Part shown: piece by piece, positions 2,691 to 34,707 of the stretch
Layout: every line of letters starts with the position of its first letter
How positions within the stretch are numbered: position 1 is the stretch's first letter
IMG/VR virus record: IMGVR_UViG_3300027797_000004
Coordinates: 1 to 36,679 of that record
Reading direction: 5' to 3' (one strand)
Length of the DNA stretch: 36,679 nt
Source: a virus
Notes under the pieces: generated by a model
Told to the model about the DNA's origin: nothing
The model's database searches: none
What the model saw: the letters and a program-made list of their open reading frames with translations, nothing else
Translations under genes and position numbers: made by a program

Positions 2691-2710
2691 TGAGTTTAGC
2701 CAAGTGTCAA
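2691..2710 (-). promoter_or_regulatory. GGCTAAA element, copy upstream of the tail tube-like gene
   Basis: On the minus strand this reads TTGACACTTGGCTAAACTCA and ends 7 nt before ATG 2683. The stop codon TGA of the upstream gene (2709-2707) is embedded in TTGACA. It matches the consensus TTKACA-N3-GGCTAAA-N2-CA shared with 5973-5992, 4453-4472, 8923-8942 and 34688-34707. TTGACA resembles a -35 box, but there is no conserved -10 at 16-18 nt, so its role (late promoter or mRNA leader signal) is inferred. Confidence 0.65.
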
Positions 2711-3150
2711 GGAGCGGTCGGCATGACCCCCCAAACGGTATATTCGATGACGTTACCATACCGGCGTTGGCTCATGCCTTCCTCGTCGTTAGCAATCCAA
2801 AGATCGTAAAGCTGGCCATCGGTAAGCGGATTCCAAAGGGCTTGGAGAGATGGCACATCGCGCATAGCACCGATGACCTCAACGACCCTTGCCCGATGGG
2901 CTTCAAGGGTCTCGTCGTCGGCGGACGAGTAGATGTACAGTTTAAGGGTAGCCGTGTAATTGCCAAGGGTTTCTGAACCAAGGTCAGGGACGGCTTGGCT
3001 GGACTCGGCATGAGCAATGATAATTGGGATGACCCGAATCTCGTCGGTCACGCCCTTATTGACGGTGACGCCTGGGAACAGCGGTGCAAGGTAAGCAGCC
3101 ACCTTGTTCTCAAGGACGGTGCGGAAACTGAAGAAGGTAGGGGGGGGCAT
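2707..3150 (-). CDS. Tail terminator / tail completion protein (gpU-like position)
   Basis: 147 aa. The N-terminal helix (FRTVLENKVAAYLAPLFPGV) and the beta-rich body with VIPIIIAH and YTATLKLYIYSS follow the pattern of small tail terminator proteins, which cap the tail tube and join it to the connector. It overlaps the upstream gene by one base (TAATG at 3150) and ends inside the GGCTAAA element that precedes the tail tube-like gene. The family call comes from pattern and order. Confidence 0.55.
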   Translation of the reverse strand: MPPPTFFSFRTVLENKVAAYLAPLFPGVTVNKGVTDEIRVIPIIIAHAESSQAVPDLGSETLGNYTATLKLYIYSSADDETLEAHRARVVEVIGAMRDVPSLQALWNPLTDGQLYDLWIANDEEGMSQRRYGNVIEYTVWGVMPTAP

Positions 3151-4115
3151 TAGGGTGTATTGGTAAGGGATAGGTCGAAACCGCCTTGGAGCCGGCGGAT
3201 GACATCGACAAGTTTGCCGTGGTTGCGCGGGGCTTGCAAATGCTTGAGCATGGCCACTCTCATCGCAAAGGCACGGTGGTTCATAGCCATCCGCATGAAG
3301 TGGTAGCCTTGGCTGTAGTTGCGGCCTATGGTGGAGCCTAGTTTAACGATTGGATCGGGGCCGGTAAGTCGAGGAGAATAGACCATTGTGCCTGACCCCT
3401 GATTGGCAATCCAGGCGGAAGTGGGCATCTTGCCGAGTTGCTGGCCAGCATAGTACCAGCCAGACTTCAGTTTTCCTACGCGCTGTTGGACTTGCTTAAT
3501 GTATCGTTCAACGGGACTCCAATTATCAACATACACTTTCTCGCTTTTAGAAGTTTCATAAACCCTGTAGGACGGTTTGCCGCGCCGCTGTTCGTGGATG
3601 GACTTGATGGAGCCTTGAGTCGTACCCATGATAAAACGGGTGCGGGGTGAACCCTGCCGAGCTTCAATCCTCTTAAAGTAGTCAAACTCGCCTTGGCCAA
3701 TGATGCCCCGTTCGGCAACCATCTTAAAAATGTATTCGGGCTGGTGGGGAGCTGGCAGTTTGAGTTTGGCATTCATCCATGCATTCAGAATCCCAATGTT
3801 GCCGGCAGCGGCCACCCCTGCGGCGGGGGCTTGAGCGATGGGGGCGAAAATCTTGCGGACATCCCGGCTGACAGCGGCTCGTCCTTTGTTGCGAGCTTTG
3901 CTTCCAAAGCCTCCCTCGCCACCCTTGCTAATTGTCGGAACTGATCCAGAAAACGGAGGGGTAAAGTCGCACATATCCTTGGCGAACAGCCGCGCTTGCT
4001 GCTTTACGACTTCCGTAATGCTTTTACGCATGACCATCATGTACAAAGCAATATGCTTGGCGAACTCAGTATAGTCCACCTTGACGCCCTTTCGGACTGT
4101 GACCACTAAGGCCAT
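3150..4115 (-). CDS. Tail completion / minor tail protein (gp10/gpZ-like position)
   Basis: 321 aa, basic. The N-terminal helical region includes MRKSITEVVKQQARLFAKDM, similar in style to HK97-gp10/lambda-gpZ type proteins, whose opening helices start with a Val/Lys-rich strand. A low-complexity G/A segment lies at about 75-110. It is longer than usual gp10-type proteins (about 130-190 aa), so it may carry an extra C-terminal domain. It overlaps both neighbours by one base (TAATG at 4115 and at 3150), indicating translational coupling. Confidence 0.5.
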   Translation of the reverse strand: MALVVTVRKGVKVDYTEFAKHIALYMMVMRKSITEVVKQQARLFAKDMCDFTPPFSGSVPTISKGGEGGFGSKARNKGRAAVSRDVRKIFAPIAQAPAAGVAAAGNIGILNAWMNAKLKLPAPHQPEYIFKMVAERGIIGQGEFDYFKRIEARQGSPRTRFIMGTTQGSIKSIHEQRRGKPSYRVYETSKSEKVYVDNWSPVERYIKQVQQRVGKLKSGWYYAGQQLGKMPTSAWIANQGSGTMVYSPRLTGPDPIVKLGSTIGRNYSQGYHFMRMAMNHRAFAMRVAMLKHLQAPRNHGKLVDVIRRLQGGFDLSLTNTP

Positions 4116-4453
4116 TACTGAACCTTGGTCTGGACTTTGACGATGACCCAGGCGGAAGGAAGACGGTCGGTAACCGTCATAATACGAAACTCCTGACCCC
4201 CATAGACCACCACATTCCCAAAGGCAATCAGCCCCGGATTAGCGACAGCGTCTGTCCGCAGGAACTTTATGTCGAACGACGTCTGATTCATAAAGCCCCC
4301 GGTTTCCATGTCCTGCATGATGGCCGGCTGTGACATTAGGGCGTTTAAGGCTACTGGCGTCCCCGCTGGGACGTTTTTAACCGTCACAGCCTTAGGTATC
4401 TCGGAAAGGATTTCCGAGGCGTCTAAAGCCCATTCGTCCGTGATTCCCGACAT
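4115..4453 (-). CDS. Head-tail connector / head completion protein
   Basis: 112 aa. It has an acidic helical N-terminus and a beta-rich C-terminal half (LIAFGNVVVYGGQEFRIMTV), resembling small head-closure proteins of the lambda gpFII type by size, order and predicted strand content. It is the first gene after the capsid terminator and is preceded immediately by a GGCTAAA element whose last A is the A of the ATG. No Shine-Dalgarno is visible. Confidence 0.5.
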   Translation of the reverse strand: MSGITDEWALDASEILSEIPKAVTVKNVPAGTPVALNALMSQPAIMQDMETGGFMNQTSFDIKFLRTDAVANPGLIAFGNVVVYGGQEFRIMTVTDRLPSAWVIVKVQTKVQ

Positions 4454-4472
4454 GGGTTTAGCCCATTGTCAA
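4453..4472 (-). promoter_or_regulatory. GGCTAAA element, copy at the head-completion gene start
   Basis: The minus strand reads TTGACAATGGGCTAAACCCA and runs into ATG 4453, so a transcript starting downstream of it would be leaderless or nearly so. In this copy ATGGG/CCCAT can also pair around CTAAA. It lies right after the capsid-gene terminator, which fits a promoter restarting transcription. The function is inferred from recurrence at five sites. Confidence 0.65.
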
Positions 4473-4481
4473 AATAAGAAA

Positions 4482-4550
4482 CCCTCCCCCCGTGGCGCGG
4501 GGAGAGGGCTTCGCATTGTCGCTTTGGGGGATTTTAAACTCCCCCGAAAG
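4482..4550 (-). terminator. Tandem hairpins with U-rich tail after the capsid gene
   Basis: Read on the minus strand, the capsid stop is followed by a first hairpin (4522-4550; GGGGGA/TCCCCC arms around an A/T loop, extended by CTTT/AAAG with one bulge). A second hairpin follows (4482-4508) with 11-bp arms, one mismatch and a 5-base loop, then TTTCTTATTTT. The second is a good intrinsic terminator. It would separate capsid transcription from the tail genes and raise the relative dose of capsid mRNA. Confidence 0.75.
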
Positions 4551-4563: not shown

Positions 4564-5478
4564 TTACGAGGTGAAGGCGATACGCTGGAGGGCGTTCGGA
4601 TTACCGACAGCCGAACCGACGAGCCAGAGGGCAGACATATTGTGCTTGCCGGCTTGCCAGTTGTACCAGTAGCGGAGAGCGAAGGCGAACTTGCTGTCCG
4701 GGTCTTGGACGACGATCTGCTCCCCACCGCCGGTGGTCGGGGTGGCAGGAACACGGGTCACGATGACGAGACCTTCCTTGCAGGAGGCCACGCCGTTGAG
4801 TCCTTCGGTGAAGGGAGAGCCGGAGGTCGGGAAGCCGTTGTATTCGGAAACCGAGAAACCGTGCAGTTCCTTGCTGATGGCGTTCTTCTGGATCACATCG
4901 CTGTTACCGTAGGAGAACGTCTGTGCGACGGACGGGTCTTGGACGAGTTGGCCAAGGGCATCGGGCGAAAGCAGGAGCTTACGGTTGATGTGAGGCAGGT
5001 TCGCCTTGGTCATGTTCTTGGCGGCGTTGGCGACGGCGATGCGGTTGAAACCGCTGGTCGCGCCGGAGTAGGCAGCGGTGGCGAAGTTCGCCGTGGTCAC
5101 CTTGGAAAGGACGTCGTCGAAGAGGGACTTCTGAACGGCGTTGGCAATCGGGGCGAAGAACAAGCGGCGGAGGCGTTCCAGGCTAAGGGTGGACGCTTCG
5201 TAGTCGGTGAAGGCGACATCGACATACTTCAGATCGGCAATCGTCACAGGGACGTCGGTCGAGGTAGCGTCGGCAGGGACGAAACCGTTGGCCGGGTTGA
5301 AGGTCGTGGCGGTGAAGGCGTCAGCATAACGGGTATGAACCGTGGTGCCGCGCTCGGCGACGTAGTTACCGAAATCGGTGACGGCAATTTCCGTCAGGGG
5401 AACGAGTTCAGGGACGAGGGTGCGAAGGGACTCTTCAGCGACGAGCTGGAGGGTCAATCCGCCAATGTTGTTAGACAT
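4564..5478 (-). CDS. Major capsid protein
   Basis: 304 aa. Gene order (protease, coiled-coil scaffold, this gene, terminator, connector), length and sequence style (TLVPELVPLTEIAVTDFGNY N-terminus, a long central helix region with LSLERLRRLFFAPIANAVQK, C-terminal DPDSKFAFALRYWYNWQAGK) support the HK97-fold coat protein of phages with an S49 protease. The coding sequence uses G/C-ending codons more strictly than its neighbours, as expected of a highly expressed gene. The start ATG 5478 is preceded by a degenerate GGCTAAA element and no Shine-Dalgarno. Confidence 0.82.
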   Translation of the reverse strand: MSNNIGGLTLQLVAEESLRTLVPELVPLTEIAVTDFGNYVAERGTTVHTRYADAFTATTFNPANGFVPADATSTDVPVTIADLKYVDVAFTDYEASTLSLERLRRLFFAPIANAVQKSLFDDVLSKVTTANFATAAYSGATSGFNRIAVANAAKNMTKANLPHINRKLLLSPDALGQLVQDPSVAQTFSYGNSDVIQKNAISKELHGFSVSEYNGFPTSGSPFTEGLNGVASCKEGLVIVTRVPATPTTGGGEQIVVQDPDSKFAFALRYWYNWQAGKHNMSALWLVGSAVGNPNALQRIAFTS

Positions 5479-5487
5479 AGTTGGTAT

Positions 5488-5507
5488 TTAGTTTAGGGGA
5501 GAGTGAA
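5488..5507 (-). promoter_or_regulatory. Degenerate GGCTAAA element before the capsid gene
   Basis: The minus strand reads TTCACTCTCCCCTAAACTAA, matching the shared consensus at TT-AC and CTAAA with identical spacing but lacking the GG. It ends 9 nt before ATG 5478. It is weaker than the five clear copies and is listed because it sits at the expected place. Confidence 0.35.
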
Positions 5508-5508
5508 A

Positions 5509-5970
5509 TCAGCGAAGACCAGCGGCGCGAAGGATGGCCGGACGGTTCTTGCTGTAGAAATCGTGAGCAGCCTTGGGGTCGGTCTGCTTGAGAGCCACCC
5601 ACTCCTCGGAGATCTCGGCGTCGCTCTTTAAAGTAGCGGCGACCTCGGAGGGGGTGACTTCAATGGGGGTGACACCGACTGAGGCAGCGATGTTAGCGGC
5701 CTTCTTGCCAGCGGTCTCTTGCGAGGCGGAAATTTCCTTTGCCTGGGCTTCAGCCTTGGCGCGGATATCTTCAGCGGCGGCGAGCTTTTCAGAAAGTTCA
5801 GTAACCTTGGCGGTGAACTCAGCGATTTGCACGTCTTTAGCAGACATTGCAACGGTCATTTCCTCGACCTTGGCGGACAAGGAGGCGACTTCACCGGCCT
5901 TGGCTTCAACCTCTGCGGTCTTACCAGTAAAGGCTTCTTTTAGGGAATTGAGGCGTTCTTCGAGCGTCAT
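5509..5970 (-). CDS. Head scaffolding-like coiled-coil protein
   Basis: 153 aa from ATG 5970. A TTG 15 nt upstream (5985) would add five residues but lies within the regulatory element, so ATG is preferred. Residues about 10-90 are a long Glu/Lys/Ala coiled coil with heptad-like spacing; the C-terminus has the helix EEWVALKQTDPKAAHDFYSK. Placed between protease and capsid, it fits an internal scaffold removed by the S49 protease during maturation. A decoration role is possible but less likely given the coiled coil. Confidence 0.62.
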   Translation of the reverse strand: MTLEERLNSLKEAFTGKTAEVEAKAGEVASLSAKVEEMTVAMSAKDVQIAEFTAKVTELSEKLAAAEDIRAKAEAQAKEISASQETAGKKAANIAASVGVTPIEVTPSEVAATLKSDAEISEEWVALKQTDPKAAHDFYSKNRPAILRAAGLR

Positions 5971-5972: not shown

Positions 5973-5992
5973 TGAATTTAGCCAAGTGTCAA
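5973..5992 (-). promoter_or_regulatory. GGCTAAA element, copy before the scaffold gene
   Basis: The minus strand reads TTGACACTTGGCTAAATTCA and ends 2 nt before ATG 5970. It is identical to the copy at 2691-2710 through TTGACACTTGGCTAAA. The protease stop TGA (5991-5989) lies inside TTGACA. Confidence 0.65.
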
Positions 5993-7062: not shown

Positions 7063-8655
7063 TTATTTGTTAGAGGTTTCTTCGTCGTCCGGGTCTACAT
7101 CGTCATCGACTATCTTGGCACCATCGTCCATTTTATCTGGATCGCTGTTAGATACCGAGGCGTTGATGTCAGAAGGTGCCACATTCTGGGGCTTGTAGAG
7201 CATCGACAGCGGAACATCGAACTCCTTGGCAAGGTCGAGCAGATACCGTTTTTCGGCGGCGTTCTCGCGCATCTTTTCTTTTGGATCAAGACCCTCTTCC
7301 AGATAATTTTCTGTGAGAGTCTTTAGGCCAGACTCAATGTCTTGGCGATTCTGTTGAGCGTCACGTCCGGCATCGACGGTCACGCGCCTTGGGGTGGTCC
7401 AAGAAACATTTGTCCAATACTCGCTGGGAGGAAGATATCCTTCCTTAATTGCACAACCAATAACATATCCCCAGACGGGGGTAAGGAAACGCTGCACCAT
7501 GACCGCTTGACGGTGCGTGAACTTGCGATCTGCCTTAGCGACCACGAAGCGCATAACAGCTCCGCCGGCCTTGGTGGGATTGGCTGTAAATTCGTACGGA
7601 AGCATCCCCGCCAGCGAGTCGCGCTCAAGATGTTCGATAAATCCGTCGAAGGTTTTGTTCGGACGATTGGACTCAAAGGACTCCAGTTTTTCGCCTGGTG
7701 CCAACGCCAGCACCTTGCCACCGAGGAAGGTTGAAGCCTCGCTCGGATCGGTCATACCGTCGCCGTAATCCTGCGGACGCATACCGAATGCTTCAAAGTC
7801 AGATTGCGTCCCATCGAAATTGGGATTCTCACGGGTAATCGTGCGCGTGATGTCAGACGTGGTCTTGACGGCCAATTTCTCTAACGAAAGAATCTCCAGC
7901 ATATCCACCAAGTTATTGATGGAGTGCTGGAGGGGGCTATACGCCCGCGCTCCAGAGGCAAGTTCGGGTTCGTACAAGTGAAGCACGGCGTTTGCCGGCA
8001 CTAGTCGGCTAGAACCATCCGAACGAATCACGTTGTAAGAAATCGGCTGACCATAAGGACCAAAAAGGATGCCGTCTACCATTCCAGGCGGTACTTCGTT
8101 GCTAGAAGAATTTCCAACCCTGTGGGACTCGATAATCTGAAGACGTGGTTCGCCGCCTGGACCACGGGTCTTGATGATAAACACTTCTCCATCCCGATCC
8201 ATCAAACGGCAGCAAATGTGCTGTAGCTCAAAAAAAGAAAACCTGCCCGTGATATCGCAAGCACGAGAACCCCACCTTTTGAAATACGCCTCGGCGGCAT
8301 CATCCCACATTTCATCACCAGACTGTGCCTGTGCCTTGATGCCGCCGCCTACGGTATACAACGCCATGTCGGACAACACTTGCCTGATCAGACCGGCGTT
8401 GAGTTCCAGCCAGCGCATCTTGCGCGTCGTCTCCATGCGGTCGAACACCGTCATGGTCTTCTTGAAGTCCTGCGGCCAAGACGACCAAATCATCGACCGC
8501 TTGTTGCTGAACTTGGCTGACTCGAAATTAGAGAAAATACCGGGGCCGCTGCCGCCCATAGCCGATTTCTGCGGAACTACTTGACGACCAACCTTGGGGG
8601 TCTGGGGTTTCCTGACCTGCGGAGTAGCAGGTTTTGTGGTCTTTTTAGGTCGCAT
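7063..8655 (-). CDS. Portal protein, lambda gpB family
   Basis: 530 aa, the normal length for lambda-type portals. Recognisable segments include LNAGLIRQVLSDMALYTVGGG (wing/clip start), DRDGEVFIIKTRG, a IIESHRVGN-type strand, and the C-terminal MLPYEFTANPTKAGGAVMRF region followed by a helical stem. The N-terminus is basic and Pro-rich. The portal is the dodecameric DNA gate at one capsid vertex and docks the terminase. It overlaps the gpW-like gene at TGATG (8655). Confidence 0.9.
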   Translation of the reverse strand: MRPKKTTKPATPQVRKPQTPKVGRQVVPQKSAMGGSGPGIFSNFESAKFSNKRSMIWSSWPQDFKKTMTVFDRMETTRKMRWLELNAGLIRQVLSDMALYTVGGGIKAQAQSGDEMWDDAAEAYFKRWGSRACDITGRFSFFELQHICCRLMDRDGEVFIIKTRGPGGEPRLQIIESHRVGNSSSNEVPPGMVDGILFGPYGQPISYNVIRSDGSSRLVPANAVLHLYEPELASGARAYSPLQHSINNLVDMLEILSLEKLAVKTTSDITRTITRENPNFDGTQSDFEAFGMRPQDYGDGMTDPSEASTFLGGKVLALAPGEKLESFESNRPNKTFDGFIEHLERDSLAGMLPYEFTANPTKAGGAVMRFVVAKADRKFTHRQAVMVQRFLTPVWGYVIGCAIKEGYLPPSEYWTNVSWTTPRRVTVDAGRDAQQNRQDIESGLKTLTENYLEEGLDPKEKMRENAAEKRYLLDLAKEFDVPLSMLYKPQNVAPSDINASVSNSDPDKMDDGAKIVDDDVDPDDEETSNK

Positions 8656-8921
8656 CAGAGTCCCCGGAAATTGTTTAACAGATTAATGACCCGAACCCTA
8701 TCGACTTTTCCATAGGTCTGGGGGTCTTTAACCATCAGCGCGTATCGGGCCTCGACCAAGACCGTGCTGATGTCCATCGGGAACTCCTTGACCACAGACG
8801 TTCCTGAATCTGCGTATTCCATCATGGTCTTACCTTGCTTCAATAATTCCTTAGCCTTGGCAACAATCTCAAGGATGTCGCAAATATCAAATATCAAAAA
8901 GATACCTTGAGGTCGTGCCAT
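8655..8921 (-). CDS. gpW-like head-tail joining protein
   Basis: 88 aa, lying between large terminase and portal exactly where lambda W lies. The core (GKTMMEYADSGTSVVKEFPM followed by DISTVLVEARYAL) mirrors the lambda gpW layout of helix, beta hairpin and second helix, where gpW also has a GKR..-DG-..VEFT segment. gpW stabilises packaged DNA and forms the tail-docking ring. The start ATG 8921 follows a GGCTAAA element with no Shine-Dalgarno. Confidence 0.62.
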   Translation of the reverse strand: MARPQGIFLIFDICDILEIVAKAKELLKQGKTMMEYADSGTSVVKEFPMDISTVLVEARYALMVKDPQTYGKVDRVRVINLLNNFRGL

Positions 8922-8922: not shown

Positions 8923-8942
8923 TGCTTTTAGCCCTGTGTAAA
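8923..8942 (-). promoter_or_regulatory. GGCTAAA element, copy before the gpW-like gene
   Basis: The minus strand reads TTTACACAGGGCTAAAAGCA and ends one base before ATG 8921. It has one change in the TTGACA part. GCCCT/AGGGC arms can pair around TTTACAC in this copy. It belongs to the set described at 2691-2710. Confidence 0.58.
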
Positions 8943-9050: not shown

Positions 9051-10912
9051 GCGGTTTCTTCGGCAGATTGTTTCTCGTCGGGCTTTCGGTCTTCGGGCTT
9101 ACCGTGGCGGTTCTTACCGCGCCCGATTAACTTTGCCATCAAGGCCGGCAGCATACCCATGACCTCGGCGTCCCATAGGTGATTAGCCCTTTCGCCAATA
9201 GGGAGCCAGATGGCCTGTCCGTTGGCTTGCCTGGTGCGGTGTTCGGACTGCATTTGCTTGCGGTACTCATCGCCAGCGTCTTCCGGGTATGTGTGATGAC
9301 CAGCCCTGCGAAGGCGCGACATGGAATCTTTGAAATATAGATTTGAGAACAGGTAAAGCTTACAGGAAGCCTGGCCGACCTGAATAACCTTTGCACGAGC
9401 ATAAGGGCGATAGGCCACCTTTATCCCGTAGGGCGTTTGGATTCTCCAAGGAAACTCATTTTGTCCCGATCCCTTGGTGGCGTTCCAGGCGTACTTTGCA
9501 CACATCCGATAAACCGTGTCGGTGTTTGGACCGTCGCCGGAATCGACGAACACAAAGAAATCTGACACCTCCAGTTTCCTCTGTGCTTCTCGCAGTTGAT
9601 CTTCAGTATCGCAATAGCCCCATTGAACCATGCGTGACTTGCCGTCCAACGCCCACGCTCGGACGACCCAGTAGTAACCTTTGCGCTGCACATCGACGGC
9701 CATAAAACGCAGCCTCGCAAACTGCTTTGCCTTCTTGTATTCTTCTTTCAACGGAGGTTCTGCAAGTTTGCTATCTACCATGTATGCCTCGCTGTCCCAT
9801 TGATCGAGCATCTTGTACCCTTGGGGCATCACTTCGCCGCCACCATCATCAGGGTCGTCTGACCAAGAAAGAGCCAACCTCTTTTGTTTGAATTCACGAC
9901 GAGATACATCGTCACCGTGTTCTTCAAATGCTTGTTTAGCACGAATGGCCATCTCCGCCAATTTCCCCCAATCCAATCCCCATTGGGCACAAAGCGAGTT
10001 CCAATGAAAGCCCACGACGCCCTTGGGAGCGTTCTGGTTCATTGGCGTATATTCGCCGGTCAAGTTCAGCTCGGCGCGTACCTCAAAAGAATCTCGGTAA
10101 CGATGCTTGCACGATTTGCATTCGTAGGTGCAGCCGGCCTTGACCTTATCGAGGTTCCAACCGTTCGGCTCCCGTGCGTCTTCAGGGTAGATTAACTGCT
10201 CCCACTCCCAGGCTTGGCGCGTACCGCATTGCGTACACTTGAACGTCCACTCTCTGCGGTCTGACTGATTCCACAGGTCGGTGATGTCATCGCCCTCAAC
10301 GCCGCCTTGCGAGACGAGCAGCGACTTGCCCTGCCAGATGAAAGCCGTGCGACGTGCCAAGGCTTCGTTTAAGTGACCCTTGGGCCAGAGCCATACTTCG
10401 TCACCGCCAAGGAATCGAATGGAACGACGCTGGAGGTTCTTCTTGTTATTCGCACCCAGCACCCAGACGGTGTTACGCTCAAAGCGGGTCTTCTTCCATT
10501 GGTTGCGTTCGGAGTCCTCCATCTTGGACAGCGTAGCCGGCGTGGCTTCCCACATTGGACGTAGGCGATCCTTCTGCCAGTCCTGTGCGTTGTCGTCGAC
10601 GTCCTGCAAAAGCAAGGTTGGCCCAGGCGAACGGGCAGGGATGAACGTCGACCACAGTTCCAGCAGGGATGACTTCCCCATCTGCACCGCACCGAGTACG
10701 ACGACGGTAGTAATCTCTGGGTCGGTCAACGCCCGGAGAATGGGAGCAAGAAACGGCGTGGACTCCACTCGGAACGGCCCAGGCTGCGGCGAGCCTGGTA
10801 CTTCGCGCACGTTAGCTTCCAGCCATTGCACGATATCGCCTTCGGGGTCGGGCGTCATCATCGCTCGGATGTGAGCCTCGAAAGTATCGACTGTATGCGG
10901 GTCGATGATCAC
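9047..10912 (-). CDS. terL: Terminase large subunit, GpA family
   Basis: The ATPase-nuclease that packages DNA. I choose GTG 10912, which forms a GTGA overlap with the upstream stop and has GAGGGG upstream, giving 621 aa; an in-frame GTG at 10933 would add 7 residues without a Shine-Dalgarno. In that longer numbering: Walker A GAVQMGKS (81-88), Walker B/catalytic GGDEVW (Glu179), zinc-ribbon-like CTQC (233-236) and CKSC (272-275), and nuclease acidic residues in FMAVDV (Asp414), FVFVDSGD (Asp464) and HLWDAE (Asp588). This is the lambda gpA layout, where gpA makes staggered cos cuts. The C-terminal 25 residues are charged. Confidence 0.92.
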   Translation of the reverse strand: MIIDPHTVDTFEAHIRAMMTPDPEGDIVQWLEANVREVPGSPQPGPFRVESTPFLAPILRALTDPEITTVVVLGAVQMGKSSLLELWSTFIPARSPGPTLLLQDVDDNAQDWQKDRLRPMWEATPATLSKMEDSERNQWKKTRFERNTVWVLGANNKKNLQRRSIRFLGGDEVWLWPKGHLNEALARRTAFIWQGKSLLVSQGGVEGDDITDLWNQSDRREWTFKCTQCGTRQAWEWEQLIYPEDAREPNGWNLDKVKAGCTYECKSCKHRYRDSFEVRAELNLTGEYTPMNQNAPKGVVGFHWNSLCAQWGLDWGKLAEMAIRAKQAFEEHGDDVSRREFKQKRLALSWSDDPDDGGGEVMPQGYKMLDQWDSEAYMVDSKLAEPPLKEEYKKAKQFARLRFMAVDVQRKGYYWVVRAWALDGKSRMVQWGYCDTEDQLREAQRKLEVSDFFVFVDSGDGPNTDTVYRMCAKYAWNATKGSGQNEFPWRIQTPYGIKVAYRPYARAKVIQVGQASCKLYLFSNLYFKDSMSRLRRAGHHTYPEDAGDEYRKQMQSEHRTRQANGQAIWLPIGERANHLWDAEVMGMLPALMAKLIGRGKNRHGKPEDRKPDEKQSAEETA

Positions 10913-11778
10913 AAACCGCACATCCCCTCGCACTCGGACTTAAAGTCAAAGCCAAGCTGGTCTTTGTGCTTATCTGTGAAATCTACTTCGTCGAGAGGCT
11001 TGCATGATTTGTGAAGATAAACCTCAATGCGTAAACCACCGGGGTTTTCGTTTTGAAGGCGGCGATAGGTCTTGTCGAATTCAACGGCCTTTTGAAAATG
11101 TTCTGGGTCTTCCGTTTTAAGGCGTCGCCACTCATCATCATCATGGAATGGGCAATAATAACAAGCCGAGCGAGGAGGCTCTGGGTAACCGTTTTTTTCC
11201 ATCCATTCTTTGCAATGAGAACGAGTCATCCGCTTTTCGACTAAAGGCCAGCGATGCTGCGTCCACGGATCTCTTGGCAGTTTCATACGTTGCATCTCGT
11301 CGTAGGAGATTCCGAGCCATTGAGTGACAGTAATTTCTTTCTGACCATGCCTAATCCCGCAACGACTTCTGATTTCTTTGATAATCGGAGCTACTTTGAA
11401 ATCGGCGGTACAAGCACGTCCCAAAGCTGGCTTTACTTCACCAGAAGGTGTAAGTCCATAAACTGGGATATTTGTGCGCAGGTAAGTCATTGGGGCTTCC
11501 GAATACTTGCATTTTTCTTTTACTCTAATTTTAAGAATGCTCTCTGTAAGGCTTCCCTTGGTTACACGAATAACAGGGAATGGAAGTTGGGTCTCAAGCC
11601 AATCAAGCCATTTATATACGCTGGTCGGTTCGGCCTGGGTATCGGCAAATACAGCAAAATCTGGCATAGGGCCGACCACACCCTTGGCGGCCATAAGGGC
11701 CAAAGCCGACGACTGGACGCCAGCACCTAGATTAAGTACTGTAAATTTAGTTTGGGGTGGAGGTTCAAAGTAACTCAT
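10909..11778 (-). CDS. PP-loop ATPase, PAPS reductase/DndC-like family
   Basis: 289 aa. The PP-loop LGAGVQSS (17-24) is followed by FAVFADTQAEP and the conserved RACTADFKVAPI (121-132), the pattern of phage proteins annotated as phosphoadenosine phosphosulfate reductase family. Nine cysteines include CYYC (206-209) and a C-terminal CEGMC, suggesting metal or Fe-S binding. Family members activate a substrate by adenylation, often for sulfur transfer to nucleotides or DNA; the substrate here is unknown. It sits between the two terminase genes, overlapping both by 4 bases, so it is translated with the packaging enzymes. That is an odd place for a metabolic gene. Confidence 0.8.
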   Translation of the reverse strand: MSYFEPPPQTKFTVLNLGAGVQSSALALMAAKGVVGPMPDFAVFADTQAEPTSVYKWLDWLETQLPFPVIRVTKGSLTESILKIRVKEKCKYSEAPMTYLRTNIPVYGLTPSGEVKPALGRACTADFKVAPIIKEIRSRCGIRHGQKEITVTQWLGISYDEMQRMKLPRDPWTQHRWPLVEKRMTRSHCKEWMEKNGYPEPPRSACYYCPFHDDDEWRRLKTEDPEHFQKAVEFDKTYRRLQNENPGGLRIEVYLHKSCKPLDEVDFTDKHKDQLGFDFKSECEGMCGL

Positions 11779-12410
11779 GGCGATTCAACCTCATCTATTG
11801 AATCCTCATCGCCAGAGTCAACCTCAATTGGATCTTCCGTGTCTACTTCCTTGATCACGGCCTGCTCGGCATAGCCAGCGGCGGACGAAAGTCGTTCTAG
11901 CATCTTCTTTACCTCGTCGTCGATGGCCTTCATGGCACGACCGGGATTGTCAGGGTTGACCCTCGACGCCAGTTTAGTGCCGAGCTGAGTAACCTCCTCC
12001 CGAACCTGCGCGAACACTCTTCCGAACCTTTCGATGGCGGTCTGGGTGCGGATGTACTCACGGCTGGCAATCTGTCGGGCTTGGAGTTCCTTCTCCAGCG
12101 TGACCAGCGTCTTTACCAACTTGTCGTAGGTCGCATACGACTTGCTGGCGTCGGGCGAATTACTCCCAAGGTCGTCAAGGTACTGCTGGTAGGCCAAAGC
12201 CTTCAGTTCGCGCTGACGCTCGACGGTCTCATTGAAATCCTTATCGGGTCGGACGTTGTTGCCCATGCGACCGGCACCCCGTGCCATGTACCAGGCTTCA
12301 GCGGACTCGATTGAGTCGATGGGCATCCCCGCTTGGATGAATTTGTTGATGGCCTGCTTGGTGACACCGAAGCGTCCAGCAAGGTCGATGGGGCGAGGTC
12401 TGTCGCTCAC
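11775..12410 (-). CDS. terS: Terminase small subunit-like (Nu1-type)
   Basis: 211 aa from GTG 12410, which overlaps the upstream stop as GTGA; a frame extension to 12449 is less likely. The N-terminal winged-HTH-like segment IDLAGRFGVTKQAINKFIQAG (about 8-30) is followed by a charged linker and a long coiled coil (about 60-180), then an acidic tail. This is the DNA-recognition plus oligomerisation layout of small terminases, which bind the packaging site. The call rests on architecture and position upstream of terL, with one gene between. Confidence 0.72.
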   Translation of the reverse strand: MSDRPRPIDLAGRFGVTKQAINKFIQAGMPIDSIESAEAWYMARGAGRMGNNVRPDKDFNETVERQRELKALAYQQYLDDLGSNSPDASKSYATYDKLVKTLVTLEKELQARQIASREYIRTQTAIERFGRVFAQVREEVTQLGTKLASRVNPDNPGRAMKAIDDEVKKMLERLSSAAGYAEQAVIKEVDTEDPIEVDSGDEDSIDEVESP

Positions 12411-12967
12411 TTGAGTTTCTTCCTTCGGGCGTTGGACAGTTTCTTGCAAGCGGCGTCGGACTTCATGTACAGCGACGGTGGCAGGTTTAAGTTACGCTGG
12501 ATAGTCTTTACCCGCGCCGAGATTGCCGCACGGGTCAGCCGGTGCTGGTTGGCCAAGGCTGTCATGGTCGGCTGGTCGGGCATCCCTAGTGCCAACTTGA
12601 TGCACGTTCCGTGGAGACGTACTTCTGCATGGGTCGAAAAATCAATGACGGCAATCACCTTGCGGAGGATGTCCAGCACCTCGTCCTGTGTGAACATCTT
12701 ATTGCTCATCTCGGACGTCTCGTTGCGATCACGCAACCTCCATTGTAACGCCTGAAGATTATTGATGTCATAGCCCTTACCCCATCCGCCCACGGTTTGG
12801 TGTTCACCATCACCCTCGTCCGTAGGTTCTCCTGAAAAGTAACGATGTGCGAAAGGGACGCCGGCGTCGTCGGGCCGGGCCGGGTCGAACCCAGTCGAAA
12901 GCAACGCCTGTCGTTCCGCCTTCGATAGCAGCTTCCAGAACCTCTGATAATCTTCATAGATTGGCAT
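12407..12967 (-). CDS. HTH-containing protein of unknown role
   Basis: 186 aa from ATG 12967; an upstream extension to 13093 reads through the neighbouring gene and is unlikely. The N-terminus (YEDYQRFWKLLSKAERQALL) is helical and the middle is Gly/Asp-rich. The C-terminal part contains MTALANQHRLTRAAISARVK, a helix-turn-helix of the type that reads DNA, followed by a basic tail. It overlaps the next gene by 4 bases (GTGA) and its predecessor by 14. It could bind packaging-site DNA or regulate the late genes. Confidence 0.6.
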   Translation of the reverse strand: MPIYEDYQRFWKLLSKAERQALLSTGFDPARPDDAGVPFAHRYFSGEPTDEGDGEHQTVGGWGKGYDINNLQALQWRLRDRNETSEMSNKMFTQDEVLDILRKVIAVIDFSTHAEVRLHGTCIKLALGMPDQPTMTALANQHRLTRAAISARVKTIQRNLNLPPSLYMKSDAACKKLSNARRKKLK

Positions 12968-13612: not shown

Positions 13613-13629
13613 TGGGCGGACATTATGGC

Positions 13630-13772
13630 TACGCTTCCAAGCGTAAAGCCAATAATGGTCTGACCATTATTTACTTTGTCTTATCTACCTTTAGGTAGAT
13701 ACAAAGTAAATGAATTGTCTATATGTTTTGCTACTGTGGTTGCTACTGTAGTTGCTATAACAACACATATAG
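13630..13772. promoter_or_regulatory. Divergent control region: four chained dyads and 12-bp repeats
   Basis: Four inverted repeats stand in a row. (1) TACGCTT-CC-AAGCGTA, 13630-13645. (2) AATAATGGTC-T-GACCATTATT, 13651-13671, perfect 10-bp arms. (3) 13669-13711, ATTTACTTTGT plus ATCTACCT paired with AGGTAGAT plus ACAAAGTAAAT, 19 bp with one 3-base bulge. (4) CTATATGTTTTG/CAACACATATAG, 13719-13730 and 13761-13772, 11 of 12 paired. Inside dyad 4 is a 12-base periodic repeat of TTGCTACTGT (13728, 13740, partial at 13752). It is the only divergent gap, so operators and promoters for both arms, or a replication origin, are likely here. Confidence 0.75.
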
Positions 13773-14298: not shown

Positions 14299-14559
14299 AT
14301 GAAACCCGCCGACTTCCCTCACTCAGACGATTATTCAAAAGCGTTTAATGCCGCCCACCCCGGCTATTTTCCGACTTACTTCTCTTCTTTCGTTTGCACT
14401 TTTGTGATCACTAAAGAAACGGAAAAAGCGGTTTTGGTAGATGGAGAAAATTGGCTCCCAAAATCCGTTTGCCTGATTGAATCGGACAAAGTCATTGGAA
14501 TTAAACACGCCTTTTATGTCCGCCTTCAACGGACGGCAAGCCGCCGCCGAGCCTTTTAA
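14299..14559 (+). CDS. Small protein, unknown (first plus-arm gene)
   Basis: 86 aa from ATG 14299; an in-frame ATG at 14290 would add three residues. Aromatic-rich (HPGYFPTYFSSFVCTFVI) then VLVDGENWLPKSVCLIESD, a small beta-type fold with a basic C-terminus. No family is recognised. The leader has no Shine-Dalgarno. Confidence 0.6.
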   Translation: MKPADFPHSDDYSKAFNAAHPGYFPTYFSSFVCTFVITKETEKAVLVDGENWLPKSVCLIESDKVIGIKHAFYVRLQRTASRRRAF

Positions 14560-14596
14560 TCACTTAATTCCTTTCCACCCAAAAAAAATAAATAAC

Positions 14597-14953: not shown

Positions 14954-14984
14954 AAACCCAAAATTTAACCCTAAAAATAAAATC

Positions 14985-15386: not shown

Positions 15387-15409
15387 AACCCAAAGCTTTC
15401 CAAAATCCC

Positions 15410-22777: not shown

Positions 22778-22778
22778 C

Positions 22779-26249: not shown

Positions 26250-26416
26250 CGCGCCGAGAAACTTACGGCAAAGTTAAGGAAGCAATCATCGAGGCCCACG
26301 CCGCCGGCATGACATATTCCGAGATTGAGACTAAATCTGGTTTTAGCCGTGCCAGCCTTTACAACGCCGCAAGACACCTTGGTTTAAACTTAAAACCATC
26401 TAAACACCGCAAATGA
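26231..26416 (+). CDS. Small HTH DNA-binding protein
   Basis: 61 aa from ATG 26231. The segment AAGMTYSEIETKSGFSRASL followed by YNAARHLGL is a clear helix-turn-helix of the resolvase/Trp-repressor-like kind. A candidate transcription regulator of the phage, possibly acting at one of the dyad arrays. Ends ATGA into the next gene. Confidence 0.65.
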   Translation: MEKNKLTRRETYGKVKEAIIEAHAAGMTYSEIETKSGFSRASLYNAARHLGLNLKPSKHRK

Positions 26417-26661
26417 GAAATCCCCCTATTAACCTGACCCAGTACACCCACAAGATGCCCAGGCGGTGCCATGCACTCATCGTCATCCTTGAAGGTGGCA
26501 AGGTTGAGCATCCCGAATTCGTGGCCTATAGCCGGGACGAGTTTGCCAGCGAAATGGCTAAGTGGAAACGCAACGTGCTGCCCACCTTAAAGCGATCTGA
26601 TGTTGATTTTTGGGAACTACACAACGGCGAACATAAAGCGGTCAATCTGCTAAACCGTTAA
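26413..26661 (+). CDS. Small protein, unknown
   Basis: 82 aa. Basic N-terminus; RRCHALIVILEGGKVEHPEF forms a beta hairpin, then a helix (YSRDEFASEMAKWKRNVL). Coupled to the next gene by TAATG. No family recognised. Confidence 0.55.
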   Translation: MRNPPINLTQYTHKMPRRCHALIVILEGGKVEHPEFVAYSRDEFASEMAKWKRNVLPTLKRSDVDFWELHNGEHKAVNLLNR

Positions 26662-28076: not shown

Positions 28077-30061
28077 CCACCGAGGATCGTGTTTCCGGGG
28101 CGAGAGCCTATCTCGCTAAACTGCCTGCCGCTGTCGCCGGCCAAGGCGGACATCCCGCCACCTACCGTGCCGCCAGCATATTGGCCAATGGGTTTGACCT
28201 GCCGTGGTCGGACGCTTGGAGCCTGCTTCAGGAGTTTAACCTCCGCTGCTCGCCGCCGTGGTCTGAGAAAGACCTGCGTCACAAGTTGAACGACGCCTAC
28301 GTCAAGCCTCACGAACGCCAGAAGGGTTGGCTTGCCAAGGGTACGGAGCGTAGGGTCGGGGCGAACGGTCGCTTCGTCTTTGACCCCAACCGGGTTGCGG
28401 AGCTGGCTGAAGCCCAGACGCCTTTCACGACCGCTGATGTCCTGCTGAACTGCTTTACGAACGAGGACATCATCTGCATCACGAACGAAGCTGGCCAGAC
28501 CGAGGACGGTAAGTGGTTCCCGGCGTCGAAGGGCATCTTCCTGACCCGCGCTGAGTGGATCACCAAGTTCTTTGGCCCCGGAGCCGTGGGGGCTGCTAAG
28601 TTTGCCGGCACGGAGTCGGGGGCTTGGATTCGCATCAACCCCTTTACGCCCGACGACTTCACGGGGACGGACGGTGCGGTATCCGCCTACCGCCACGTCT
28701 TGGTCGAGTTCGACAAGAAGCCCAAGGACGAGCAGGTGGCCATCTTCCAGCAATCAAACCTGCCCATCAGCCTGCTCGTTGACTCTGGCGGCAAGTCAGT
28801 CCACGCCTGGGTGCGCGTCGACGCCCAGACCAAGGAGCAATGGGAAGAGCGACGTAATACGGTGTATGACTACCTTTCCGACCATGAACCCGACCCGCAA
28901 AACAAGAACCCGTCCCGCTGGAGCCGCCTCGGCGGAGTCATGCGCGGGGAGAACGAACAGAAAATCGTCGCCTTTAAAACGGGAGCCTTGGACTGGGATG
29001 ACTTCGTTGCTTGGAGGGAAGGACAAGACTTTCCACAAGAAGTCAGCACGGAAACCTTGGAAAACTATGACACGAGAAACGATCCTAACCACGTCGTCGG
29101 ACACGGTCGGTACTTATGCCGTGGTGGCTCGCTACTCGTTACAGGTCAATCAGGAATCGGGAAGTCGTCGTTTGTCATGCAGATGGCAGCTTCTTGGGCA
29201 ATCGGTCGGGAACTCTTCGGGATACCTGTCATTCACCCTCTCAAAATCGCAGTCGTTCAAGCCGAGTGCGATATCGGAGACCTTGCCGAAGCCTATCAGG
29301 GCGTCAGTTCTGGAATGCGTCTGTCCCCGGAAGAGAAGGCGTTGTGCAAAACGAACCTAAAGTTCTTTACCGAGGCGTCGAAGACGGGCAAGGACTTTGT
29401 CGACCTGTGCAGGAAGATTATCGTAAGGCATAAACTGGACGTGCTGGTCGCCGATCCGCTGCTGTCCTATGTGGGGGGTGACCTATCCAAGCAGGAGGTC
29501 TGCTCCCACTTCCTGCGTAACCTTGTGCAGCCCGTGCTTCAGGAAACGGGGTGCATCATGGTCTTCATCCACCATGAGGGCAAACCAAAGCCGCAGGAGG
29601 TCAAGGACGGCCAGACGGTGTCCGACCAGATGTACAGCGGTATTGGGAGTTCGGAGTTGGTGAACTGGTCAAGGGCCATTATCAACATCAGGCGGGAGTC
29701 GAAGGAACTGCCCGTGTTCTCGTTCAACCTAACGAAGCGCGGGAAGCTGGCTGGGATGCGGACGCCAGACGGCAAGCCTACCCTATCAATCAAACTAAAA
29801 CACGCCGATGATCGGGTGCTATGGGAGGTCGCCCCCTTGGCCGGCGGTTTCGAGCTGCTCAAGGTCGGGCAGCAGTACCGTCACTTTGAGTCCAAGCCCC
29901 GCATCAGCCGGGGGGCTTTGCTAGAGGAATTGGTGTCCGACCACAAACTCCAGCGCGACCAGGCGGAAGCCCTTATCAAGGCTATGGTCACCAACGGCAT
30001 TATCGAACCCCGAAAGGTGGGTGCCGCTCTGTACTACCAAGGCACCAAATACGACACATGA
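28073..30061 (+). CDS. Primase-helicase fusion (AEP primase plus RepA-like helicase)
   Basis: 662 aa, three parts. Residues 1-85 resemble a primase-associated helical domain (ASILANGFDLPWSDAWSLL). Residues about 200-315 look like an archaeo-eukaryotic primase core: VEFDKK (Glu212/Asp214), GGKSVHAW (Ser242/His244) and WVRVD. Residues about 340-600 are a RecA-like helicase with Walker A GQSGIGKSS (358-366), VVQAECD, Walker B LDVLVADP (455-462) and IHHEGK (His500/501). It would load, unwind and prime phage DNA; no polymerase is encoded. Ends ATGA into the Mom-like gene. Confidence 0.82.
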   Translation: MTTEDRVSGARAYLAKLPAAVAGQGGHPATYRAASILANGFDLPWSDAWSLLQEFNLRCSPPWSEKDLRHKLNDAYVKPHERQKGWLAKGTERRVGANGRFVFDPNRVAELAEAQTPFTTADVLLNCFTNEDIICITNEAGQTEDGKWFPASKGIFLTRAEWITKFFGPGAVGAAKFAGTESGAWIRINPFTPDDFTGTDGAVSAYRHVLVEFDKKPKDEQVAIFQQSNLPISLLVDSGGKSVHAWVRVDAQTKEQWEERRNTVYDYLSDHEPDPQNKNPSRWSRLGGVMRGENEQKIVAFKTGALDWDDFVAWREGQDFPQEVSTETLENYDTRNDPNHVVGHGRYLCRGGSLLVTGQSGIGKSSFVMQMAASWAIGRELFGIPVIHPLKIAVVQAECDIGDLAEAYQGVSSGMRLSPEEKALCKTNLKFFTEASKTGKDFVDLCRKIIVRHKLDVLVADPLLSYVGGDLSKQEVCSHFLRNLVQPVLQETGCIMVFIHHEGKPKPQEVKDGQTVSDQMYSGIGSSELVNWSRAIINIRRESKELPVFSFNLTKRGKLAGMRTPDGKPTLSIKLKHADDRVLWEVAPLAGGFELLKVGQQYRHFESKPRISRGALLEELVSDHKLQRDQAEALIKAMVTNGIIEPRKVGAALYYQGTKYDT

Positions 30062-30723
30062 GCATCGTGTCTACTCTCACGGTAAGACCTATCGAATATA
30101 GGTTGGCAATGGATACCATCGTTAAAAATCATTACCTGCACAGGGAATGTTCCTGTTCAGCGTCGTTTGGCTTATTCACCAACGAGACGACCAATGATGA
30201 TTTCTTTCAGCAAGGCAGGCTTGTCGGCGTGATTGTCTTTGGCAAGCCGTCTTCCTACACTCTTTGCAACGGCATTTGCGGCAACGACGAAAGCAAGAAC
30301 GTGGTTGAGTTCAATAGGTTATGGGTTGAGGAATCGATGCCCAAGAATACTGAAAGCTTCTTTGTAGGCCATGCCCTTCGCCAATGCCCCTTTGAAATTA
30401 TCGTGTCCTTTGCGGATTCCGAGCAGGGACATATTGGGTATATCTACCAAGCTACCAATTGGATTTATACGGGCATTAGCCCGAAGATGAAGTACTTCCG
30501 ACCCAAGAATGCATCGGTTAACGCTGGTGGGACGGTCTACCGCCGCCGGGAACGCATGACGAAGCAGGACATCATTGATCAATATGGCGAAGACATGGTT
30601 GAGGAATACTTTAGCAGCATGAAGTATCGGTACATCTATTTTAACTGTTCCAAGACCCGTAAGAAGGAACTGATGAAAAAGCTGAAGTACCCAGTCCTGC
30701 CTTACCCCAAGAAAGCCGCCTAG
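30058..30723 (+). CDS. Mom-like DNA modification protein (GNAT-type)
   Basis: 221 aa. The pattern NHYLHR (24-29), FGLFTNETTND, LVGVIVFGKPS, VEFNRLWVEE, MPKNTESFF, IIVSFADSEQGHIGYIYQAT followed by NWIYTGIS is that of the family annotated in phages as Mom-like (acetyltransferase-fold). Phage Mu Mom modifies adenine in phage DNA to resist restriction. The assignment is by pattern recall; catalytic equivalence is not shown. It is the last gene of the plus arm, overlapping the primase-helicase by ATGA. Confidence 0.7.
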   Translation: MSIVSTLTVRPIEYRLAMDTIVKNHYLHRECSCSASFGLFTNETTNDDFFQQGRLVGVIVFGKPSSYTLCNGICGNDESKNVVEFNRLWVEESMPKNTESFFVGHALRQCPFEIIVSFADSEQGHIGYIYQATNWIYTGISPKMKYFRPKNASVNAGGTVYRRRERMTKQDIIDQYGEDMVEEYFSSMKYRYIYFNCSKTRKKELMKKLKYPVLPYPKKAA

Positions 30724-32345: not shown

Positions 32346-34349
32346 TTAAGCGGGGCGAAGGCCGAGTCGATAGTTGGTTCCGTTAATCGTTACGAGCAGG
32401 TCGAGCGTAACTGGCCCGCCTGTATGTGCGTCGGTGGCGGTCGGGTTAAACACGAGGCCGTTAAAGGACATTCCGTTGCCATCAATCTTAATGGCCGCAG
32501 TTGCGTCCGGGGCGGTTCCGACTCCGACCTTGCCATGCTGATCTACAACGAAAGCCGTAGCGTCAGGGGTTGTGCTGTCTTCGACTTGGATGGCGTTACC
32601 TGTGCCAAGCTGCGTAACCCGCAGGGCAGCGGTGGTTGTTGCAAGTGGAGACTGAATAATCTGCGGCTGCGAAAAGGTGTTGGAGGTGGTGGTATTCGCA
32701 ACAGTTTTAAGCGTCCCAGAAACGTCCCTAAAGTTTATGTTAGTCGCAATCCAGATGTCACCCGCAACAGAGGTAGTCGGGGCTGTCCCCACGCCAAGGT
32801 TGAGCGAAGCCGAGCCAGCCGTCGGTGCTGCCATGTTGACCTTGCCGGTGAACGTAGCACCAGCCAGCGGAGCGTAAGGAGCAAGAGACGCCGACGTAAT
32901 AAACCCTTGCTGGTTAACGTAAAACGTTGAGGCAATCGTGTAAGTGGTTCCTGCGTTACGATAAACAAAGTGACCGCTGGGAAAGTCTCGTGCAAAGTCT
33001 CCGTCTTGCAGGATGTTTCCTAAAGTCGCGCTGGCTGAAAAGTTAACGCGCGCATTAGTATTTCCAGCTCCGTCGTCAGGTGCGTCCGTAATAAGCAGTC
33101 GACCCATCGGGATGTTGGGGCCTCCACTTGGTCCGAAAGCGATGTCGGAATATAGGTTTGAAATTAAACCTAAAACCGTTCCGACTTCTGTCTTTGTATT
33201 AAGCACCGTTGCGAGGTCGGTCTGATCGCCTAACGTCCCGGTGATTGAACCCCATACACCGCCACCGCCAACCGCCGACCACCCTCCGTTGAGCCGTCCG
33301 TAGGTGTAACCGTCCGAAGGAGCGTCGGTGATGTAGCCCTGCGAGGTAACAAAGGACTCGGTGGCGTATCCAATCAACGCCGAAGCGTCGATAAATGCTG
33401 AAGGGTTGCCGGCAAGAGGGTAATACAGTCCGTCGGCGGTGGGCTGGTCAAGTTTAACATCCAGCGCGCTTTGAAGATCAGCCTGGTTGGAGAGTGTCCC
33501 AACAATAGACCCCCAAGTGCCGCTACCACCTGTGTAGGCCGTGGTCTGCGTCGTTGCGTCTGGGAACGTTATGCCGGACGATGGCTGAATTGTGAATTGT
33601 CCGTAGCCCGTATGATTAAGGCTTAATGACGTAGAGTTTAAATGTGCGACGTTACTACCAGACCCCTGAATAGTAGCAGAGGCAAAAGTCACCCCGCTTA
33701 CTGAACCTAAATCCAGATTGCTTCTGGCTGTTGCCGGGTTGGTAATCCCTGTAAGGTTTCCTTCCTTAGTAAGGTAAGCCGACATCCCAGACAGCGGCTG
33801 GTACGTTGATGCAGCCGTCGAGGAAAGGAGATAAGGAGCAAGTGCGGCGGAAGTGATGAAGGACGAAGGGTTGCCAGTTAAAGGATAAAATCCAGAATTA
33901 ACAAATGACTCGGTTGCATAGCCAATAAGTGCAGAACTTGTGATATACCCTTGGCCTAAAACAAAAATTTCCGTTGCGTAACCTTGGCTCAATACAAAGT
34001 TTTCTGTTGCATACCCAGTAAGATCAAGTGCGGTAATAAACCCGTCTGGATTGGACTGCAAATAATAGGTAGCCGCCGCACTAGTAGTATCCAATTTGCT
34101 ATTTAAAACTGACTGTAAGTCAGTCTGGGTAGATAGGGTGCCGGTGATTCCTCCCCAGGCAACGCCGCTGATGTCACTAGACCAGCCTGTGTCGTAGTCG
34201 GTTGCACTTAATTTTTTGAGTACCTGACCCGTTGTGCCTCCAGCGGCTACTCCCTCTCCGGGGACGCCTTGGGGGCCAGTCGGGCCGGCAGGACCAGCAA
34301 AGAGGACTTCAAAAGCCGCTTGATCGTTAATGCTAATTGTAAAGGCCAT
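32346..34349 (-). CDS. Tail fibre protein with collagen-like motif and repeats
   Basis: 667 aa. A short collagen-like run AGPAGPTGPQGVPGEG (about 18-33) follows an N-terminal FTISINDQAAFEVLFAG, typical of phage fibre anchors. Then tandem units of the form WGxIxGTLxxQxDLxxxLxxK alternate with GYATESFV-type segments. The C-terminal half is Thr/Ser/Ala-rich and beta-structured. Trimeric fibres bind the host surface; the repeats may provide length and variation. No chaperone domain is visible at the end. Confidence 0.8.
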   Translation of the reverse strand: MAFTISINDQAAFEVLFAGPAGPTGPQGVPGEGVAAGGTTGQVLKKLSATDYDTGWSSDISGVAWGGITGTLSTQTDLQSVLNSKLDTTSAAATYYLQSNPDGFITALDLTGYATENFVLSQGYATEIFVLGQGYITSSALIGYATESFVNSGFYPLTGNPSSFITSAALAPYLLSSTAASTYQPLSGMSAYLTKEGNLTGITNPATARSNLDLGSVSGVTFASATIQGSGSNVAHLNSTSLSLNHTGYGQFTIQPSSGITFPDATTQTTAYTGGSGTWGSIVGTLSNQADLQSALDVKLDQPTADGLYYPLAGNPSAFIDASALIGYATESFVTSQGYITDAPSDGYTYGRLNGGWSAVGGGGVWGSITGTLGDQTDLATVLNTKTEVGTVLGLISNLYSDIAFGPSGGPNIPMGRLLITDAPDDGAGNTNARVNFSASATLGNILQDGDFARDFPSGHFVYRNAGTTYTIASTFYVNQQGFITSASLAPYAPLAGATFTGKVNMAAPTAGSASLNLGVGTAPTTSVAGDIWIATNINFRDVSGTLKTVANTTTSNTFSQPQIIQSPLATTTAALRVTQLGTGNAIQVEDSTTPDATAFVVDQHGKVGVGTAPDATAAIKIDGNGMSFNGLVFNPTATDAHTGGPVTLDLLVTINGTNYRLGLRPA

Positions 34350-34675
34350 CAGTAAGAGACTTTGTTGGGGGTTACGTTGGGCAATATTTCAAGCCTTACG
34401 GTAGCAGAGTAGAACACCTCGCTGGTGTTCTGATAAAATTTGATATCCCAATATGCCGTACCAATGTTCCATTCCTGCGTCTGATTAGAGGTTACCGTAA
34501 AGGTGGTAGGGCTGGTGATTACTACATCAAAATAATGAAGCTTATTGTGGGCATCGAGCAGCGCGGTGACGATGGTTACCCCGGTCAGGCTTGCCGGCCA
34601 CCCAGGCTCCGTGGCATAGGTTCCAGCACCAATAAAGGTTACTCCCCGCTTAAATTGATGATTTGTGCAGGACAT
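34349..34675 (-). CDS. Small adsorption-region protein, unknown
   Basis: 108 aa from ATG 34675. A TTG at 34717 would extend it by 14 residues, but the GGCTAAA element (34688-34707) then falls inside the gene; in four other copies this element lies before the ATG. Beta-rich (GVTFIGAGTYATEPG, VVITSPTTFTVTSNQ). Between tail-tip and fibre genes it may be a fibre-connector subunit. No family recognised. Confidence 0.58.
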   Translation of the reverse strand: MSCTNHQFKRGVTFIGAGTYATEPGWPASLTGVTIVTALLDAHNKLHYFDVVITSPTTFTVTSNQTQEWNIGTAYWDIKFYQNTSEVFYSATVRLEILPNVTPNKVSY

Positions 34676-34687
34676 ATGTTCGCCGTT

Positions 34688-34707
34688 TGAGTTTAGCCGT
34701 ATGTCAA
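34688..34707 (-). promoter_or_regulatory. GGCTAAA element, copy before the 34.3-34.7 kb gene
   Basis: The minus strand reads TTGACATACGGCTAAACTCA, an exact match to the shared core, 12 nt upstream of ATG 34675. Its presence supports that ATG over the upstream TTG. Confidence 0.65.

Follow-up and report, generated by a model that had tools for sequence, protein, structure and literature searches.

What is the short sequence that recurs immediately before late genes of an uncultured phage, and does it act in transcription or in translation? To address this question we analysed the whole of IMG/VR record IMGVR_UViG_3300027797_000004 (36,679 nucleotides; hereafter the window). This virus record is complete and carries a terminal repeat of 127 nt, and the late arm thus spans the record ends. 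By gene-family matches in the window, the minus strand encodes terminase, portal, protease, capsid, tape measure and tail fibre, and the plus strand helicase, RecT, exonuclease and primase. Judged by its capsid, the nearest cultured phage is Verrucomicrobia phage P8625 (28%), and a portal-protein prophage search for the host in genome_contigs gave no match.

Some features of the layout are of separate interest. The stretch between the divergent early and late operons (13613-16200) holds many GCC-type short repeats and few conserved genes. A PAPS-reductase-like gene (10909-11778, minus strand) and a Mom-like gene (30058-30723, plus strand) are both 90% identical to those of relative G008, whose other genes are about 30-80% identical to the window's, and were not found in most other relatives; they look like a recent acquisition common to the window phage and G008. 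Finally, three places on the plus strand (17095-17124, 19790-19819 and 22755-22784), one of them the start of the RecT gene (19814), share CTAACATGGAA-like ends, either by coincidence or as a possible second motif tied to the starts of early genes.

Five copies of the element in the late arm

The original prediction had placed five copies of the element on the minus strand, and these were recovered: the pattern TTKACANNNGGCTAAANNCA has five exact matches in the window, all on that strand, against a mean of 0.00 in 100 dinucleotide shuffles.

8923..8942, minus strand: element 1, TTTACACAGGGCTAAAAGCA, exact match, before the 88-aa gene 8655-8921
5973..5992, minus strand: element 2, TTGACACTTGGCTAAATTCA, exact match, before the scaffold-like gene 5509-5970
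4453..4472, minus strand: element 3, TTGACAATGGGCTAAACCCA, exact match, before gene 4115-4453, the first after the capsid gene
2691..2710, minus strand: element 4, TTGACACTTGGCTAAACTCA, exact match, before the putative tail-tube gene 2354-2683
34688..34707, minus strand: element 5, TTGACATACGGCTAAACTCA, exact match, before gene 34349-34675

The 88-aa gene behind element 1 opens the portal-protease unit, and the gene behind element 5 precedes the tail-fibre gene. Gene 2354-2683 had no family match, and its designation as a tail-tube gene is a guess from size and position. The copies are tightly packed against their neighbours: the upstream protease gene ends in a TGA that falls within the TTGACA of element 2, element 4 overlaps the stop of gene 2707-3150, and the last A of element 3 (position 20, hereafter A20) doubles as the first base of the ATG that starts gene 4115-4453. 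Measured from A20 to the A of the ATG, the distances are 0 (4453), 2 (8923), 3 (5973), 8 (2691) and 13 (34688); all copies therefore lie close to a start codon as predicted. Allowing up to 3 mismatches added just two weak matches in the window scan, neither before a late gene start.

The element is conserved before the same genes in relatives

We gathered 80 relatives by capsid protein alone, independently of the motif (851 kb in total), and found the core TTNACANNNGGCTAAA 252 times on the capsid strand, with 0 occurrences on the opposite strand and 0 of the reversed core. Every core with enough flank (250/250) immediately precedes one of these five genes, with no more than 21 nt to an ATG. 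This answers the concern that the pattern might be equally common in coding sequence, and it establishes the conservation before orthologous genes on which the original prediction depended. In viral_contigs, the plain pattern had many matches inside coding sequence with no ATG nearby, which look like chance. Among capsid relatives with enough flank, the exact core was present at element 1 in 41 of 46 (the rest carrying clear variants), and the corresponding counts were 65/73 relatives for element 2, 60/75 for element 3, 56/64 for element 4 and 24/25 for element 5; across the five site types, relatives without the exact core mostly showed visible variants. More than a hundred related sequences of uncultured phages retain the element. 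Given that the adjoining proteins diverge to about 30-50% identity, and that no column of the upstream flanks exceeds 0.34 bit, conserved columns ending sharply at position 1 (102 non-redundant sites), it is the element that is conserved and not the region.

A degenerate sixth copy had also been proposed before the capsid gene (5488-5507). We rejected it: the site has 5 mismatches, was missed in the scan at up to 3 mismatches, and the core precedes the capsid gene in none of the 80 capsid relatives.

4564..5478, minus strand: major capsid gene (phrog_283, E 2.3e-22)

Positions 5479-5508 hold the capsid gene's own conserved pyrimidine-rich leader (TTTTCxCTTCAACCCTAAA...ATG in relatives), which is unrelated to the element.

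Some relatives do have a sixth element, located at the late operon end (L200:1351-1420, L102, L109, L112, L127, L149, L175, L187, L276, L277 and L278) with a strong hairpin (-18 to -26 kcal/mol) a few nt beyond it; in G003 (L275) this element and its ATG have both decayed. The 14-codon ORF at the sixth site does not look protein-coding, given that its sense-codon differences are only nonsynonymous (3 nonsynonymous codon differences, 0 sense-codon synonymous, and 1 stop-codon change from TAG to TAA). The sixth element and its hairpin could be a small RNA unit.

Anatomy of the element

The element is 20 bases long, with the form TTGACA-N3-GGCTAAA-N2-CA in the window and TTGACA-N4-GC-N7-A family-wide. 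Positions 1-6 and 10-12 (TTGACA, GGC) served to find the 102 non-redundant sites, while positions 13-20, including A20, were not used for finding sites, except at loci from the pattern scan. Position 20 is nevertheless A in 102/102 of these sites, even where positions 13-19 have changed completely, and the base preceding it is nearly always a pyrimidine. The ATG starts at A20 in 33 of 193 unique sites and otherwise lies 2 to 21 nt downstream, never upstream. Such an ATG boundary, together with the pyrimidine-A step, is as expected of a transcription start at A20, which we infer to be the start site. The spacing from core to ATG differs between genes, from 3 to about 24 nt.

We then considered whether the element contains the parts of a conventional signal. 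A TTGACA-like -35 hexamer is present, and a canonical -10 was rejected: over 103 sites, the best TATAAT match at spacing 15-19 scored 2.41/6 against 2.74/6 in shuffles, in agreement with the earlier statement that no -10 stands at the right spacing. To our knowledge, a TTGACA at -19 to -14 from the putative start fits neither sigma70 nor any known bacterial promoter. Shine-Dalgarno motifs are depleted genome-wide (2/42 genes versus 11% of random 18-mers), and Shine-Dalgarno avoidance has been described for some Verrucomicrobia (PMC10783764). A conserved hairpin within the element was unsupported, with N2 varying as CC, GG, AA, CT or AG.

Elements and a terminator-like hairpin mark probable transcription units

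Downstream of the capsid gene we found the following feature, whose T-run reaches into element 3.

4478..4512, minus strand: intrinsic-terminator-like hairpin after the capsid gene

The 45 nt upstream of the 4453 element folded with a mean z of -5.87 in every lineage tested (14/14 non-redundant relatives), and the stem sequences differ among relatives, yet remain complementary. The same 45-nt folding test detected no upstream terminator-like fold at the other four site types; specifically, a hairpin before the 8923 site was unsupported as a terminator (mean z -0.28). The scaffold-capsid unit is thus bracketed by an element and a terminator, with the next element (4453) directly after it, and the capsid gene inside it has none, which supports the proposal that the sites open transcription units. 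A capsid gene without an element fits a marker of unit starts, not a translation booster. Phage terminators leak, and an upstream terminator alone is no proof of a promoter.

Sites of one genome change together

The sites of a given genome resemble each other at positions that vary between genomes. At positions 17-18 the main lineage has CC, G006 has GG, G007 has AA and the L069-L077 lineage has CT; among G008/G009 and relatives all five sites have changed together to TTGACA-N4-GCTAATTCCA, and the L287/L289 sublineage has GCTAGTTCCA at three of the four sites seen. When genomes were shuffled within each site type (5000 permutations), within-genome agreement at positions 17-18 was 0.70 versus 0.36 permuted (0/5000). 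The N3 spacer, which is conserved by site type, had no within-genome effect (0.346 versus 0.327), meaning that genome base composition is not the cause of the agreement at positions 17-18. Joint change across one genome's sites points to a common partner, and implies that these sites share a putative trans-acting factor; this is evidence for a shared partner, not for DNA as its target. Host differences between lineages could contribute to the concerted change.

Candidate factors

No RNA polymerase or sigma factor was recognised above the curated threshold. Specifically, a T7-like polymerase (PF00940) was matched neither in G000 nor in any of six relatives (E 9.9e-110 for the T7 control), multisubunit polymerase beta and beta-prime domains (PF00623, PF00562) gave no match in six genomes (all 14 controls positive), and sigma region 2 gave no match either (controls positive). 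Two small proteins are candidates for the factor.

12407..12709, minus strand: candidate trans-acting factor, a 100-aa helix-turn-helix protein, possibly sigma-region-4-like
26413..26661, plus strand: second, weaker candidate, an 82-aa protein whose divergence tracks the element-class change

The 100-aa protein is present in all nine full-length relatives. Its predicted model (pLDDT 85.8) gave sigma70/sigmaA region 4 as the top rows in VIA-align (67-69 residues, rmsd 4.4-5.8) with Z of 5.0-5.6, values that also arise between unrelated helix-turn-helix proteins. The sole matches to PF04545, in two relatives, fall in this gene and are below the cut-off (11.5-12.6 bits). Since sigma region 4 is the part that reads TTGACA, the resemblance makes this protein an attractive but unproven candidate for the factor acting at the element. 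Its recognition helix reads SARVKTIQR, SRRVKHIQR or SRRVKNIQR, or SLRVKTIQR according to element class, and these differences track the classes, but the classes also follow phylogeny and the two are confounded. A homologue in P8625 was not significant, and none was matched in INPHARED phage records. As a side observation, the hypothetical gene gp40 of P8625 (L198, 26589-26654) has a sub-threshold sigma-70 region 4 match (E 7e-4 in the genome).

The 82-aa protein, for which no known fold was found, is 68-70% identical in G006/G007 and 37-39% identical in G008/G009; for other universal genes, the two pairs show about the same similarity.

A probable compact late promoter and its alternatives

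The original prediction had offered two readings of the element, a late promoter and a signal for initiation on the mRNA. The promoter is favoured by the element's conservation at orthologous genes, its specificity of strand and position, the missing -10, the terminator and the concerted evolution; the RNA-level signal is less favoured. We therefore consider that the element is probably this phage family's compact late promoter, with transcription starting at A20 and giving leaderless or near-leaderless mRNAs. Late mRNAs would begin at the element's last base, either with the AUG itself at +1 or with a leader of some 2-21 nt, and each element would open one unit of morphogenesis genes. The element would act as DNA, recognised by a phage-encoded trans-acting factor that redirects host RNA polymerase to it, with the sigma-region-4-like protein 12407-12709 as the first candidate. 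Given that no phage RNA polymerase was recognised, transcription by host polymerase with a phage factor is the most likely arrangement. A more specific version, in which a small phage sigma4-like protein binds TTGACA 19 bp upstream and, with GC and A20, sets the host polymerase start at A20, so that late mRNAs are leaderless and factor and sites co-evolve as lineage-specific pairs in a new promoter architecture, is tentative and in our view rather doubtful.

A translation signal, too, would be expected to lie close to an ATG, and this proximity counts against the promoter reading. The corresponding alternative is that UUGACA-N3-GGCUAAA-N2-CA in the mRNA recruits a phage protein or a modified ribosome to selected late start codons, replacing the Shine-Dalgarno sequence. 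All sites are in sense orientation with 0-21 nt between their end and an ATG, Shine-Dalgarno motifs are depleted, an RNA-binding partner explains the concerted evolution equally well, and the start-associated sequence (SAS) of cluster K mycobacteriophages offers a precedent. However, the core-to-ATG spacing is too variable for a ribosome-binding signal, the capsid gene, which needs heavy translation, has no element in 80/80 relatives, and a terminator separates upstream transcription from the 4453 element; moreover, the sixth site is followed by a hairpin and shows no mark of protein constraint, and the freely varying N2 leaves no conserved hairpin inside the element. Considering this, we regard an mRNA-level signal as unlikely.

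It is less likely still that the element serves as an operator through which a DNA-binding protein of the phage blocks or times late transcription, as with the oriented stoperators of mycobacteriophage L5. Its asymmetry, its single orientation and its position in short gaps between genes, where it overlaps stop and start codons, would suit an operator, and a conserved helix-turn-helix protein is encoded. Yet L5 stoperators include repressor-bound copies at the early promoter and genome-wide, whereas the element has no site outside the late arm, and a scan of the window allowing up to 2 mismatches found none in its early region; an operator also gives no reason for the hard ATG boundary at A20, and the gap from terminator to ATG at 4453 is too short to hold another promoter. 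A host housekeeping sigma70-type promoter, with TTGACA as a true -35 box, appears very improbable: the hexamer is the exact -35 consensus, and related cultured P8625 has TTGACA with a TATTGG or TATCTG hexamer before three late genes, but the element lacks a -10 at spacing 15-19 and the start would land inside coding sequence.

Comparison with known systems

The best analogues of the element are the cluster K SAS and the late promoters of phage AR9, neither of which defines it. The SAS is likewise an asymmetric short repeat found almost always in one orientation, a few nt from start codons, before particular gene families and sometimes holding the upstream stop codon, and its function, like that of the element, is unproven. 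It differs in being GGGATAGGAGCCC with a Shine-Dalgarno core and in occupying the non-structural half, whereas the element has an entirely different consensus and precedes structural genes; the ESAS additionally holds a sigma-A-like -35/-10 pair, while the element has neither a -10 nor a Shine-Dalgarno sequence.

T7-type promoters are self-contained (~17-20 bp) with an AT-rich stretch just before the start, have copies before scaffold and other virion genes, and T7-type phages have a terminator after the capsid gene. The self-contained layout, the AT-rich stretch before the putative start, the virion-gene copies and the post-capsid terminator recur with the element; the T7-type start base is G, as opposed to the putative A of the element, and the T7-type polymerase has no T7-like counterpart gene in seven genomes of the family. 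At T4 late promoters, the phage sigma-like gp55 and gp33 (the latter sigma4-like) redirect host polymerase. Phage-encoded sigma-like factors on host polymerase resemble the mechanism proposed for the element, but T4 needs just a TATAAATA -10 box, whereas the element's conserved parts would be TTGACA at -19 and GC at -9 to -8.

P8625 (NC_029047), a distant relative, resembles the window in having TTGACA before the gene preceding the portal gene and before tail genes, with an ATG directly at the element end, and differs in its sigma70-like spacing with a -10-like hexamer and in lacking the compact element. Its sites (L198, 5412, 10736 and 15558) read TTGACA-N17-TATTGG, TATTGG or TATCTG, respectively, -N7-ATG, and precede gp08, gp15 and gp22. 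As a sigma70-type promoter, this three-site geometry would give leaderless mRNAs. The compact element could be a derived form of a P8625-like promoter, a comparison that rests on three sites.

The AR9 late promoters (AACA-N6-T(A/G)) are compact and end on the transcription start (PMC5312081). Like the element, they are a short motif of late genes with no -35/-10, the start at the last base being predicted in our case. They are attributed to a phage multisubunit RNA polymerase (PMC5312081), of which none is recognisable in the element's phage family, and their leaders measure 26-491 nt (PMC5312081) as against a predicted 0-21 nt for the element.

Implications

Our literature search turned up no direct account of the motif or of leaderless late promoters in phages of this kind, and transcription control is almost unstudied in phages of Verrucomicrobia-like bacteria. 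A 20-bp element that varies by lineage, lacks a classical -10 and comes with no phage polymerase that we could recognise makes a directly testable system, in an organism that hardly uses Shine-Dalgarno sequences. It poses the questions of whether a small phage protein redirects host polymerase and whether a compact element sets the start at AUG. The element also provides a simple signature with which to find and orient late operons in a large uncultured phage family.
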